NCBI GenBank assembly: GCA_913031575.1
Contig: CAJWEV010000019.1
Span: 1 to 37,647, forward strand
Source: an uncultured Halieaceae bacterium
GTDB taxonomy: Bacteria > Pseudomonadota > Gammaproteobacteria > Pseudomonadales > Halieaceae
DNA length: 37,647 nt
Direction of reading: 5' to 3'
Notes under the pieces: model-generated
The model's input: the letters and a program-made list of their open reading frames with translations, nothing else
What the model was told of the DNA's origin: nothing
Database searches by the model: none
In this document: piece after piece, positions 229-9,961 of the stretch
How positions within the stretch are numbered: the stretch's first letter is position 1
Layout of the letters: the number at the start of each line of letters is the position of its first letter
Position numbers and translations under genes: made by a program

Positions 229-276
229 TGCCACGACCAGCTGGATTTGAACCGGCGACCTCTATCATGTCAAGGC
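229..276 (-). pseudogene. tRNA-Val(GAC) 3'-half remnant, possible attachment-site copy
   Basis: Read on the minus strand this is the anticodon loop, variable region, T arm and acceptor 3' side of a tRNA, without a 5' half. Bases 235-275 match 36 of 41 positions of the intact tRNA-Val at 9891-9931, in the same orientation. The GAC anticodon loop and the AGGTCGCC stretch are preserved. The anticodon stem no longer pairs well, the terminal CCA is lost and there is no D arm. Tyrosine-recombinase elements commonly duplicate exactly this part of a tRNA, so it may be a decayed att site. The rest of 114-427 holds no gene I can support. Confidence 0.6.
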
Positions 277-427
277 GGTCGATACACTCCATGACATGCT
301 AGAAAACTAATAAATTAATTTGCCCTTATATTTCTTTCAGGCTTTAACTGTTGGCCGTACAGTGTTTTGCAAAGGTGTGGTCTACTTGGGCACAACTGGC
401 GACGCAATTTTATAAACAGAGGTTTTT

Positions 428-1828
428 ATGCTGGCGACGATCAATAAGAACAAATCAACGTTTCAGCAGGGCAAAAATTGGAAGGGCACGAAACATGGGT
501 GTCTGGAGGCCTCTACTGTTACCCGAGTTATCCACTTTGTGGTAGTACTCCTATTGTTAATGGGGACCCCAAAGGCGCTTACTGAGCCAGCGAGTGCAGT
601 TGCCTCGGATCCACGAAATATGGGTTGGATGAGGGGCTTCCCACCTCCGGCCAATAAAGTCATCAAACAATCCTCGAGCGATTATTTTACATTTCCGAAA
701 TTACGATGGACGTTTTGCAATTTTAGGCAGCTGCAGGCGAGTCGGGGTGTTAATCGGGGCTTGGACCCTATTTCACAGTTGCCGGTATCTCTTGATCCTA
801 TGATTGATGGCGTCACGTTTAGGCCCATTAATACAGACGAGCCAATGACATGGCATGACTCTCTTGATGCTAACTACACTGACGGGATTGTCGTCGTGCA
901 TCGTGGTGAGATTGTCTATGAGTATTACTCAGGTTGCCTAGATCGTGCCGGCAGGCATGGGGCTATGTCGGTAACGAAGTCCTTTGTGGGTCTGATCGGC
1001 GAAACGCTCATCGCCGAGGGTATCCTCGATGATCAAAAGCCGGTGGGTGAATATGTACCAGAGCTCATTCGGTCAGCGTTTGGAAGCGCGACATTGCGCG
1101 AAGTAATGGATATGACAACAGCGCTGGATTACAGCGAAAACTATGCAGATCCAGAGTCAGACATTTGGTTGTATGCCGCTGCGGGTAACCCGGCACCCAA
1201 ACCAGCGAGCTACACAGGCCCTCGCTCTCTGTATGAGTTTTTAGCGGGTGTTGAGCAGGATGGAGAGCATGGCGAAAAATTTGTCTATAAATCCATCAAC
1301 ACGGACGTCCTCGCTTGGGTGATCGCACGAGCGAGTGGCAAAGACTTCATCGAGCATCTCTCAGAAAGGATTTGGAAGCCACTTGGGATGGAGCAAGAAG
1401 CTGACATGATGGTCGATAGTTTGGGGACGCCCTTTGCGGCTGGGGGCCTTTCTTTGTCGCTTCGAGATGCCGCTCGCTTTGGGCAGCTGATGCTACAAAA
1501 GGGTGCGTGGAACGGAAACCAGATAATCCCAAGCAAAGCAGTTTTTTCAATAATGAACGGTGGGGACCGCTCAAAGTTTCGTGAGGCTGGTTACGAAACA
1601 CTTCCTGGTGGAAGTTATGGGAGTCAGTGGTGGTCTCTTCACAACGAGAACGGCGCTTATAGTGCGCGCGGTATCCACGGCCAGGCAATTTATATTGATC
1701 CCGCAGCTGATATGGTCATTGCGCGATTCGCATCTCACCCCGTTTCGTTTAACGCGGCTATAGACCCTAATTCTCTACCCGCGTACCAGGCAGTAGCGAA
1801 TTACCTCATCGGAAAGTTAGACAAATGA
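428..1828 (+). CDS. Serine hydrolase, beta-lactamase class C / NylB (6-aminohexanoate-dimer hydrolase)-like
   Basis: This is a penicillin-recognising-fold serine hydrolase of 466 residues. The nucleophile motif SxxK is S181-V-T-K184, the tyrosine of the second motif is probably Y287 (YKSIN), and the KTG-like element is H417-G-Q. The context DGIVVVHRGE upstream of SVTKSFVG is typical of NylB/EstB-like esterases and amidases rather than true beta-lactamases. The N-terminus has a basic stretch and a hydrophobic segment at about residues 34-50, so it is probably exported or membrane anchored. The start at 428 has AGAGG a few bases upstream. A start nearer the hydrophobic segment is possible but no better ATG is present. 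The substrate is unknown. It is followed by two more exported proteins on the same strand. Confidence 0.85.
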   Translation: MLATINKNKSTFQQGKNWKGTKHGCLEASTVTRVIHFVVVLLLLMGTPKALTEPASAVASDPRNMGWMRGFPPPANKVIKQSSSDYFTFPKLRWTFCNFRQLQASRGVNRGLDPISQLPVSLDPMIDGVTFRPINTDEPMTWHDSLDANYTDGIVVVHRGEIVYEYYSGCLDRAGRHGAMSVTKSFVGLIGETLIAEGILDDQKPVGEYVPELIRSAFGSATLREVMDMTTALDYSENYADPESDIWLYAAAGNPAPKPASYTGPRSLYEFLAGVEQDGEHGEKFVYKSINTDVLAWVIARASGKDFIEHLSERIWKPLGMEQEADMMVDSLGTPFAAGGLSLSLRDAARFGQLMLQKGAWNGNQIIPSKAVFSIMNGGDRSKFREAGYETLPGGSYGSQWWSLHNENGAYSARGIHGQAIYIDPAADMVIARFASHPVSFNAAIDPNSLPAYQAVANYLIGKLDK

Positions 1829-1886
1829 TGTAGCCCCACTCAAAGTTATTTCGGTGGCTATGCGAGTAAATAGGAGAAAAACGATA

Positions 1887-8651: not shown

Positions 8652-8752
8652 TCTAAAATTAGACGCTTATGCTAAAGGCGCGTCGATTAATGTCCCGGCC
8701 CTGGGTGCCGCTAGAGATTCGGGTAACACATGTAATGAAGGTTGAGCAGATC

Positions 8753-9802
8753 ATGAAAGCGTTGAGCAAGGTTTTTCTATTTTCGGTGCTTAGCGTGGTA
8801 AATCTCTATGTTAGCGCTGACGACTTCTCCATAGGAGAGATCACGGTGCCTAGAGGTGAGCGGGTGTCAGGGTTCATCATTGTGCCCGAGGGTATGGACG
8901 AAGGCAGCACAATACCTGTAACTGTTGTGCATGGTGCTAATGATGGACCGGTACTCGCTCTAATTGCCGGCATTCACGGCTATGAGTACCCCCCTATCAC
9001 TGCTCTACAGGCAATGAGAACGCAGGTAGATCCTGCAGCTCTAAGTGGCACCATAATCCTGGTACACATCGCCAATATGCCCGCTTTTTTGGGTCGTACG
9101 ATTTATTACAGCCCCGGTGATGGTAAAAACTTGAATCGCATGTTCCCTGGCGATCCCGACGGCAGTATCAGTCAACGCATTGCCCACATCCTCACCACCG
9201 AGGTAATTGACCAAGCCAACTATCTTATCGATCTGCATGGAGGAGACGGCAATGAGGCTCTGCGGCCTTACGTCTATATGCCTGTGACGGGAAACGCTGT
9301 CTTTGACAGCAAAATAGAGGGACTGGCGGTAGCATTTGGTTTGGACCACATCGTTATGGACAAAGGGCCACAACACGCTAGCGGACTCTCGTTATTTACA
9401 GATCAAACAGCGCTTGAAAGAGGAATCCCAGCCATCACAACGGAGACCGGGAAATCTGGGTCTAACGCTCCTTATTGGGTAGGGATGGCAGAGAGAGGGA
9501 TATGGAACGTGTTACGGCACCTGGACATGATCGACGAGGACGAGGTGGTTAATACAGGAATCACCTGGTTAAGCGACTACAAAGTCATAAAGAGCCCACG
9601 ATCGGGCATTTTTCGCGCAGTGACCAAAGACGGCTATTCTGTGGCCGAAGACGCGGTGCTAGGTGTGCTCGTGGACTTTTTTGGGGACGAGTTGTTAACG
9701 ATCCGAGCACCTTTTGCCGGGGTGGTGAACTACGTAATTAGCACCCCTCCCGTGAATGAAGGCGAGCCCGTAGCGATGATTAGCAAGGTTGTTGAGCGTT
9801 AA
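8753..9802 (+). CDS. Secreted succinylglutamate desuccinylase/aspartoacylase (AstE/AspA)-like zinc hydrolase
   Basis: The protein has 349 residues from the ATG at 8753, chosen because a clear signal peptide begins there (residues 1-22, ending VSA-DD). Longer in-frame starts at 8669 and 8735 would bury it. The M14-related zinc site is visible: H75 and E78 in GIHGYEY and H162 in LIDLHGG. The NLNRMFPG signature lies near 127-134 and the catalytic glutamate is probably E231 (TTETGKSG). Family members remove acyl groups from amino acids or act as carboxypeptidase-like amidohydrolases. Export to the periplasm argues against a role in arginine catabolism. The substrate is unknown. It is the last gene before the tRNA. 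Confidence 0.85.
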   Translation: MKALSKVFLFSVLSVVNLYVSADDFSIGEITVPRGERVSGFIIVPEGMDEGSTIPVTVVHGANDGPVLALIAGIHGYEYPPITALQAMRTQVDPAALSGTIILVHIANMPAFLGRTIYYSPGDGKNLNRMFPGDPDGSISQRIAHILTTEVIDQANYLIDLHGGDGNEALRPYVYMPVTGNAVFDSKIEGLAVAFGLDHIVMDKGPQHASGLSLFTDQTALERGIPAITTETGKSGSNAPYWVGMAERGIWNVLRHLDMIDEDEVVNTGITWLSDYKVIKSPRSGIFRAVTKDGYSVAEDAVLGVLVDFFGDELLTIRAPFAGVVNYVISTPPVNEGEPVAMISKVVER

Positions 9803-9884
9803 TAGCAAGTCATATCACTTCAAAGTTATTTTTGCGGTAACCGTCGCAATTTCAACGTTACTTTGCCCCTGGGGCGGCTTTGAT

Positions 9885-9961
9885 TGGTAGGACCAGCCAG
9901 ATTCGAACTGGCGACCTCTACCATGTCAAGGTAGCGCTCTAACCAACTGAGCTATGGTCCT
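9885..9961 (-). tRNA. tRNA-Val (anticodon GAC)
   Basis: On the minus strand the sequence folds into a full cloverleaf. The acceptor is AGGACCA/TGGTCCT, the D arm is GCTCAGTTGGTTAGAGC, and the anticodon arm is CTACC-TTGACAT-GGTAG with anticodon GAC. The T arm is GCCAG-TTCGAAT-CTGGC, and the discriminator A is followed by an encoded CCA. It decodes GUC/GUU valine codons. Degenerate copies of parts of it lie at 229-276 and near 7107-7136, all in this orientation. The tRNA 3' end points into the left region, the usual geometry for tRNA-targeted integration. Confidence 0.97.

Follow-up and report, generated by a model that had tools for sequence, protein, structure and literature searches.

An apparent accretion array of integrase-less cassettes at tRNA-Val(GAC) in a Halieaceae bacterium

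The window analysed here is the complete contig C19 (37,647 bases) of an uncultured Halieaceae bacterium, whose draft genome amounts to 2.14 Mb on 88 contigs and is 79% complete. We interpret positions 1-9961, which end in an intact tRNA-Val(GAC) gene, as the tRNA-side portion of an array that has grown at this tRNA by accretion of integrative cassettes that lack an integrase and are moved in trans, a reading that we hold to be about 85% probable. Its support in sequence consists of repeats with constant ends and an adjoining arm, blocks that are shared and re-ordered between genomes, a block of high identity between genomes whose flanks have diverged, and a tyrosine recombinase beside the tRNA in five relatives. 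The array in this genome is old, with three decayed sites besides the tRNA and no recombinase assembled, and it is probably no longer mobile. The tRNA and the leftmost site comprise the following features.

9885..9961, reverse strand: intact tRNA-Val(GAC), the integration target; called by ARAGORN, the sole tRNA called in the window
9885..9931, reverse strand: attachment core inside the intact tRNA, from its 3' end to the anticodon loop; the 47-bp segment that recurs at other sites
229..275, reverse strand: decayed copy of the attachment site, covering tRNA-Val from its 3' end as far as the anticodon loop; 36/41 identity over 235-275
276..317, no strand: decayed element arm beside the left copy, not in the tRNA; site hidden Markov model (HMM) 235-314, E 2.3e-15; model R1 235-317
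161..234, no strand: leftover arm (right end) of one more cassette, on the left side; matches the site surroundings of the relatives G050 and G064

An earlier note on this DNA had described bases 235-275 as a direct repeat of the tRNA 3' half at 9891-9931, in the same orientation and with the homology stopping near the anticodon stem. Our comparison confirms this repeat (36 of 41 bases, 87.8% over 41 bp), whose tRNA homology ends in the anticodon loop, as well as the statement that the tRNA 3' end faces 280-9880. The left copy is found with an E-value of 3.2e-8 when the tRNA is searched against its own genome (2.14 Mb), and model R1, which was built from 28 aligned sites (47 bp plus arm) and scores the arm beyond the tRNA homology, matches 235-317 with an E-value of 3.1e-15. 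The note's interpretation of the repeat as an attachment site is likewise borne out, in that its end points are those of copies across the genus and its arm is common to other sites and absent from the tRNA. The left edge of the fragment lies 228 bases from the start of the contig, and the sequence around it resembles site regions elsewhere: 161-287 is 75.0% identical to a site region of G050 over 128 bp, and 161-279 is 77.5% identical to one of G064 over 120 bp. Since the sequence to the left of 235 thus resembles the right end of G050 and G064 cassettes, the window copy looks internal to an array. An A-rich motif, judged by eye, precedes many sites.

The sequence of the left copy is tRNA-derived, and closely spaced copies exist in some genomes of other genera (G129, G092), as would suit a decayed tandem tRNA gene in place of an attachment site. 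However, the copy has no tRNA 5' half, its match over 235-314 continues past the anticodon loop into the element arm instead of the tRNA, and other sites of the genus are truncated in the same way. With the arm standing where tRNA would otherwise continue, we treat a tandem-tRNA origin as ruled out for all practical purposes. The earlier note had named a case that would favor a tandem tRNA, namely a gene order constant among all relatives and a cluster of tRNAs on the left; the comparisons do not show this.

When 38 genomes, 24 of them from the same genus, were searched with the tRNA, many extra copies of exactly this 3' segment were found, and G006, G020, G050 and G064 carry several copies per contig, in one orientation and downstream of the intact tRNA. 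The aligned copies start at the tRNA 3' end, with the TGG that represents CCA, and reach as far as the anticodon loop, beyond which they have in common an arm of about 40 bp that occurs in at least three kinds, diverging just past the core. At an E-value cut-off of 1e-4, model R1 has 119 matches, distributed over 36 of the 57 genomes of the genus. Arm-reaching matches (position 61 or beyond) number 81, partial and weak ones included, and are spread over 28 genomes, 21 of which have two or more; the remainder comprises 27 matches that stop at position 50 (tRNA) and 11 that are short or fall on other tRNAs. These counts are lower bounds, as the genomes are drafts and the Infernal search applied stricter filters. 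No match was found in 21 of the 57 genomes, several of which have no recognisable tRNA-Val(GAC) in their assembly. Among 94 other genomes of the order that served as a control and were searched along with the own genome, no listed match extended beyond position 58, that is, beyond the tRNA; R1 was trained on this genus, and the control therefore speaks to the specificity of the model and leaves similar arrays with other arms aside.

Within the window, a third site divides the stretch between the left copy and the tRNA.

6998..7169, no strand: third, decayed site of the hairpin-rich variant, with core and arm at 7107-7169 (nhmmer)

Positions 6998-7158 match the hairpin-rich site type with an nhmmer E-value of 1.4e-18, or 8.2e-20 when the window alone is searched; for core and arm only, the E-values are 0.0034 and 2.0e-4. 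The third site implies that 276-9884 consists of at least two cassettes, here called A (left) and B (right). The hairpin-rich element (TDE) from which this variant takes its name is a sequence of about 175 bp that lies directly downstream of tRNA-Val(GAC) in several genomes and whose last 19 bases repeat the tRNA 3' end exactly, as in these examples.

L061:13631-13804: TDE in G043
L063:19090-19266: TDE in G050
L044:2288-2464: TDE in G018

A derivative of the TDE forms the left part of several site copies, including window positions 6998-7158. Its folding is more stable than that of shuffled sequences (z -3.14), and when the G043 TDE was compared with Rfam, the gathering score was attained for the adjacent tRNA alone, while six further matches stayed below theirs. 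The frame F105 was rejected as a decoy, being no more than an open frame that crosses TDE and site.

The earlier note had envisaged a single island of 9.6 kb with ends at 235 and 9885. That part of its proposal is not borne out, given the third site, the cassette-end remnant to the left of 235 and a further copy on contig C1 of the same genome. In genomes with a single copy, the TDE occurs by itself downstream of the tRNA as well and is thus not always a cassette border, which would allow the internal match at 6998-7169 to be an unrelated repeat within one element. We consider this improbable: at the third site the TDE is followed by core and arm (7107-7169) as at other sites, DNA similarity to G018 spans 369-6783 and ends there, and the gene that comes after the third site (7540-8034) is related to one carried by another element, that of G006.

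Intervals between sites (39 on 16 stretches) range from 1.2 to 25.5 kb with a median of 6.6 kb, for sites that were chosen by hand and with weak internal ones omitted (e.g., in G041 and G065). For the block adjoining the tRNA, identity is 99.4% for the pair G041/G020 (4,291 bp), 98.8% for G041/G065 and 98.7% for G065/G020 (5,709 bp, tRNA included), versus 76.9%, 78.1% and 74.8%, respectively, in the aligned left flanks; the flank values derive from aligned stretches of at least 200 bp only, and the true flank divergence is larger. A 14.4-kb block is 90.6-95.1% identical among these three genomes, and the block F057-F058 lies to the left of it in G020 and to the right of it in G041. G050 and G001 have in common a block that includes two alkaline phosphatase genes, with identities of 98.1 and 93.6% as against 87.5-93.1% in their flanks. 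The higher identity near the tRNA, together with decayed copies farther off, fits accretion at the tRNA.

In G006, 89 bases separate the tRNA 3' end from a gene for a tyrosine recombinase (PF00589). At E 1e-20 or better, this protein and its relatives are found in 5 of the 57 genomes (G006, G069, G050, G053 and G005), within 100 bp of the tRNA 3' end in all five, and their alignment is invariant in the R, K, H-x-x-R, H and Y columns, which we take to be the catalytic residues. All 21 genomes with two or more arm-bearing copies were searched for PF00589: three (G006, G050 and G053) have the recombinase at the tRNA, and in the other 18 no match was found among the sites on assembled contigs, where fragmented drafts may hide some. 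G064 has a PF00589 fragment beyond its array, at the distant end of the contig that holds it. As to a possible phage vehicle, which may still exist, a viral collection contained one distant relative of the recombinase (28% identity) and no match to the two exact site patterns searched.

We infer the chemistry of the crossover, the circular intermediates, the mobilisation in trans and the action of this recombinase on these sites, and propose the following course of events. A tyrosine recombinase would recombine a circular cassette with the tRNA, the crossover falling in the anticodon loop. The cassette would supply its own tRNA 3' half, leaving the tRNA intact, and the old 3' half would be displaced downstream as a 47-bp direct repeat beside the element arm. 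Repeated events would stack cassettes between such copies, with the youngest adjoining the tRNA and the older copies decaying. Most cassettes would consist of cargo and end sites without a recombinase and would be moved by the recombinase of another element at the same tRNA.

The chromosomal surroundings help to place the array. To the right, the tRNA is followed by two genes of the chromosomal flank.

10024..11321, reverse strand: right chromosomal flank, a PhyH-family dioxygenase gene (PF05721) and an endoribonuclease L-PSP-family gene (PF01042)

Among 29 stretches that were compared, 7 have the PhyH gene adjoining the tRNA, and window positions 9884-24774 are broadly colinear with G050 and G064 at 80-87% identity, while inside 280-9880 both genomes match only at the left site; the comparison with relatives that the earlier note had suggested is thus in keeping with an inserted region. 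To the left, the same tRNA 3'-half segment recurs in this genome at 124461-124509 of contig C1, 449 bases from the contig end, and the C1 flank up to a solute-binding-protein gene is colinear with G018, G006 and G050 at 83-85%. In G000, a copy lies 63 bases after the same solute-binding-protein gene. The conserved left flank on C1 and the position of the copy in G000 indicate that C1 and C19 are probably neighbours with a gap between them. A place on contig C72 that matches the tRNA-Val 5' half is explained by a tRNA-Met located there. Between the conserved left and right flanks, the sequence differs among relatives. An S49 peptidase gene of the left flank (79-83% amino acid identity to G000 and G020) lies 2.3 kb from the single tRNA copy in G016, with no copy between, and 32.7 kb from the tRNA in G020, with the array in between. 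The gene order of G016 may therefore represent the unoccupied arrangement, although its right flank does not match that of the window.

Several observations weigh against the proposed array and its mobility. C1 and C19 are not joined in the assembly, and the full extent of the array is inferred. At the DNA level the empty site is weak: the left match between G016 and G069 covers 262 bp, mostly the repeated hairpin TDE, and the right match extends about 24 bp past the tRNA, followed by 83 bp displaced by 3.8 kb, so that we relied on gene order for the empty site. No recombinase was found at the array in the 79% complete assembly, where PF00589 matches occur only on contigs C2 and C36 and none on C19 or C1; the earlier note's statement that no integrase is left is accurate for the assembled sequence. 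Cassette A is 81.5-88.8% identical to G018 and the flanks, at 79-84%, are hardly lower, and a recent transfer of cassette A consequently lacks support. Finally, with respect to the site copies, the block F038-F042 has in G064 the opposite orientation to that in G041 and G066, at about 69% identity. Simple site-specific integration does not predict such an inversion, which at this identity may reflect an old event or an independent capture. The inverted block is a six-gene sulfatase block (L067/L066 in G064, L068 in G041 and L079 in G066).

Homologous recombination between copies could cause part of the shuffling. In its strongest form, this account holds that cassettes are exchanged mainly when DNA that has been taken up recombines homologously through the 47-bp repeats and the conserved flanks, and that site-specific integration did no more than found the array. 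It would accommodate the inverted block and the 18 of 21 multi-copy genomes in which no PF00589 match lies among the sites, and the conserved flanks on both sides would offer homology; yet the end points are constant at the anticodon loop, three arm kinds diverge right after the shared core, and the recombinase, wherever found, is beside this tRNA. Forty-seven base pairs are also short for efficient homologous recombination. We regard this account as rather unlikely, though deserving of consideration, and retain accretion by integration of cassettes at the tRNA as the preferred reading.

Cis-mobilizable elements (CIMEs) and the accretion of integrative and conjugative element (ICE) families involve blocks that have end sites, carry no recombination genes and are stacked at one target. 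Cassettes A and B are alike in lying between sites without a recombinase, and the shared sites, together with the recombinase in relatives, may point to mobilisation by a helper with the same sites; no conjugation helper was identified, and no search for one was made. CIMEs are named in a paper on the ssrA-specific islands of Dehalococcoides, which are the nearest described case: these islands are arranged in tandem and bounded by direct repeats of the RNA gene 3' end, and 15 of them have no integration module and were suggested to be cis-mobilizable (PMC3146451). The present array shares with them the tandem arrangement, the 3'-end repeats, integration genes beside the RNA gene in some cases and metabolic cargo, whereas Dehalococcoides has a 20-bp repeat, ssrA and a serine recombinase in place of the 47-bp repeat, tRNA-Val, anticodon-loop crossover and tyrosine recombinase seen or proposed here (PMC3146451). 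The additive islands of Alteromonas (PMC4119200) and of Methylophilaceae, the latter with tRNA-end repeats of 20 bp of tRNA-Lys (PMC10872708), likewise have a conserved tRNA as the target of gene cassettes and a strain-variable length; they differ in their tRNAs and hosts, and the accessible text reports neither a conserved arm nor a re-ordering of site-bounded cassettes between species (PMC4119200, PMC10872708). Prochlorococcus tycheposons resemble the array in being tRNA-bordered and marine and in having a tyrosine recombinase and nutrient-uptake cargo (PMC10872708, PMC11389934). The tRNA border, tyrosine recombinase and nutrient cargo are present in some relatives of this genome, and the window is without the recombinase. 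On the part of the literature seen, the array is an additional member of an already known type, that of the Dehalococcoides ssrA islands and the Alteromonas and Methylophilaceae additive islands (PMC3146451, PMC4119200, PMC10872708). Literature searches on islands, tRNA and integrase in Halieaceae, Luminiphilus or OM60/NOR5, and on tandem tRNA islands at large, yielded no description of this array in titles and the beginnings of abstracts.

As regards formal class, the window has the tRNA 3'-end direct repeat at the far side from an intact tRNA that marks a tRNA island, and no integrase next to the tRNA, a feature present in 5 of 57 relatives; because no integrase lies by the window tRNA, we file the stretch as remnant cassettes and not as an autonomous island. 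An integron was rejected, as the recombinase reaches 30.7 bits with the integron-integrase model, whose cut-off is 265, and so does not qualify as IntI. Cassettes of the attC type were likewise rejected, as the sites are tRNA 3' halves and the blocks are multi-gene with the median size given above (attC was judged without folding).

The cargo of blocks in relatives, listed from selected genes only by Pfam, includes the two alkaline phosphatases; an ABC-3 permease and a CobW GTPase that accompany a ZnuA-like protein; genes for a P450, an AMP-ligase and an aldehyde dehydrogenase together with a TonB receptor; a sulfatase block that has an FAA hydrolase; and, further, an SBF-family transporter and an S9 peptidase. 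The near-identical cassette with two alkaline phosphatase genes is found in two species, at L064:10734-14263 (G050) and in L045 (G001), and is likely a phosphorus-acquisition cassette. Tentatively, the genus as a whole may possess an integron-like exchange of operons, with tRNA-Val(GAC) as the entry point, the 47-bp half and the arm as the tag, a rare recombinase acting in trans, and nutrient-uptake operons travelling as blocks of 1-25 kb; the alkaline phosphatases, the ZnuA-like zinc-uptake set and the TonB receptor with catabolic genes would then be operons traded between species. The array makes of a single tRNA scar a map of metabolic operon exchange in a marine bacterial genus. The sites delimit the cassettes sharply and indicate in which order they arrived, and order, transfer and loss can be tested in comparable species (G006, G020, G041, G050 and G065). 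Should trans-mobilisation of integrase-less cassettes be real, a minority with the recombinase would be working on behalf of the gene exchange of all the others, a question that concerns integrase-less islands in general.

The two cassettes of the window contain the following genes.

428..1828, forward strand: cassette A, beta-lactamase-fold serine hydrolase (PF00144); relatives in G018 (80% amino acid identity, right after a site copy) and G043
1854..3506, forward strand: cassette A, beta-propeller, SMP-30/NHL-like protein; neighbour order as in G018 and G043
3660..5861, forward strand: cassette A, peptidase family M3, Dcp-like (PF01432; 566.6 bits with the NCBIfam Dcp model, below its cut-off of 944)
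5952..6761, reverse strand: cassette A, HupE/UreJ-family membrane protein (PF13795)
7299..7529, forward strand: cassette B, 76-aa open frame with no family found, which may not be a gene
7540..8034, forward strand: cassette B, 164-aa protein; 67.5% amino acid identity to L035 8906-9385, in the integrase-bearing element of G006
8238..8651, forward strand: cassette B, MAPEG-family membrane protein (PF01124)
8669..9802, forward strand: cassette B, succinylglutamate desuccinylase/aspartoacylase-family deacylase (PF24827; 107 bits with the DoeB model, below its cut-off)

The G006 relative of the 164-aa protein has a DUF3592 match below the cut-off. GC content is 49.7% in 276-6997 and 47.6% in 7126-9884, compared with 51.5% (standard deviation 1.7%) in 2-kb flank windows. 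The GC comparison that the earlier note had recommended finds only a mild difference from the flanks, and composition by itself is weak evidence.

Two genomes of the control set, from two other families of the order, have a second tRNA-Val 3'-end copy without this arm: G075 (L102 5179-5228 and 14939-14993) and G094 (L103 4586-4635 and 8314-8358). The copies are 3.7-9.8 kb apart, as scanned with the site models only, and perhaps belong to separate islands at the same tRNA. G017, listed as 100% complete, and several other genomes gave no match to tRNA-Val(GAC), which may have been lost or may be missing from the assembly.

The serine hydrolase gene of cassette A also occurs outside such arrays, as the site models match nothing in L056-L058 (Halieaceae), whose hydrolase relatives are 70-72% identical in amino acid sequence; L055, with another relative, is a G018 contig. 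In G018, the cassette A genes stand in the same order directly behind a copy (80-89% amino acid identity), and G043 holds the first two of them inside its own array region, at 73.5% DNA identity over 2,964 bp.

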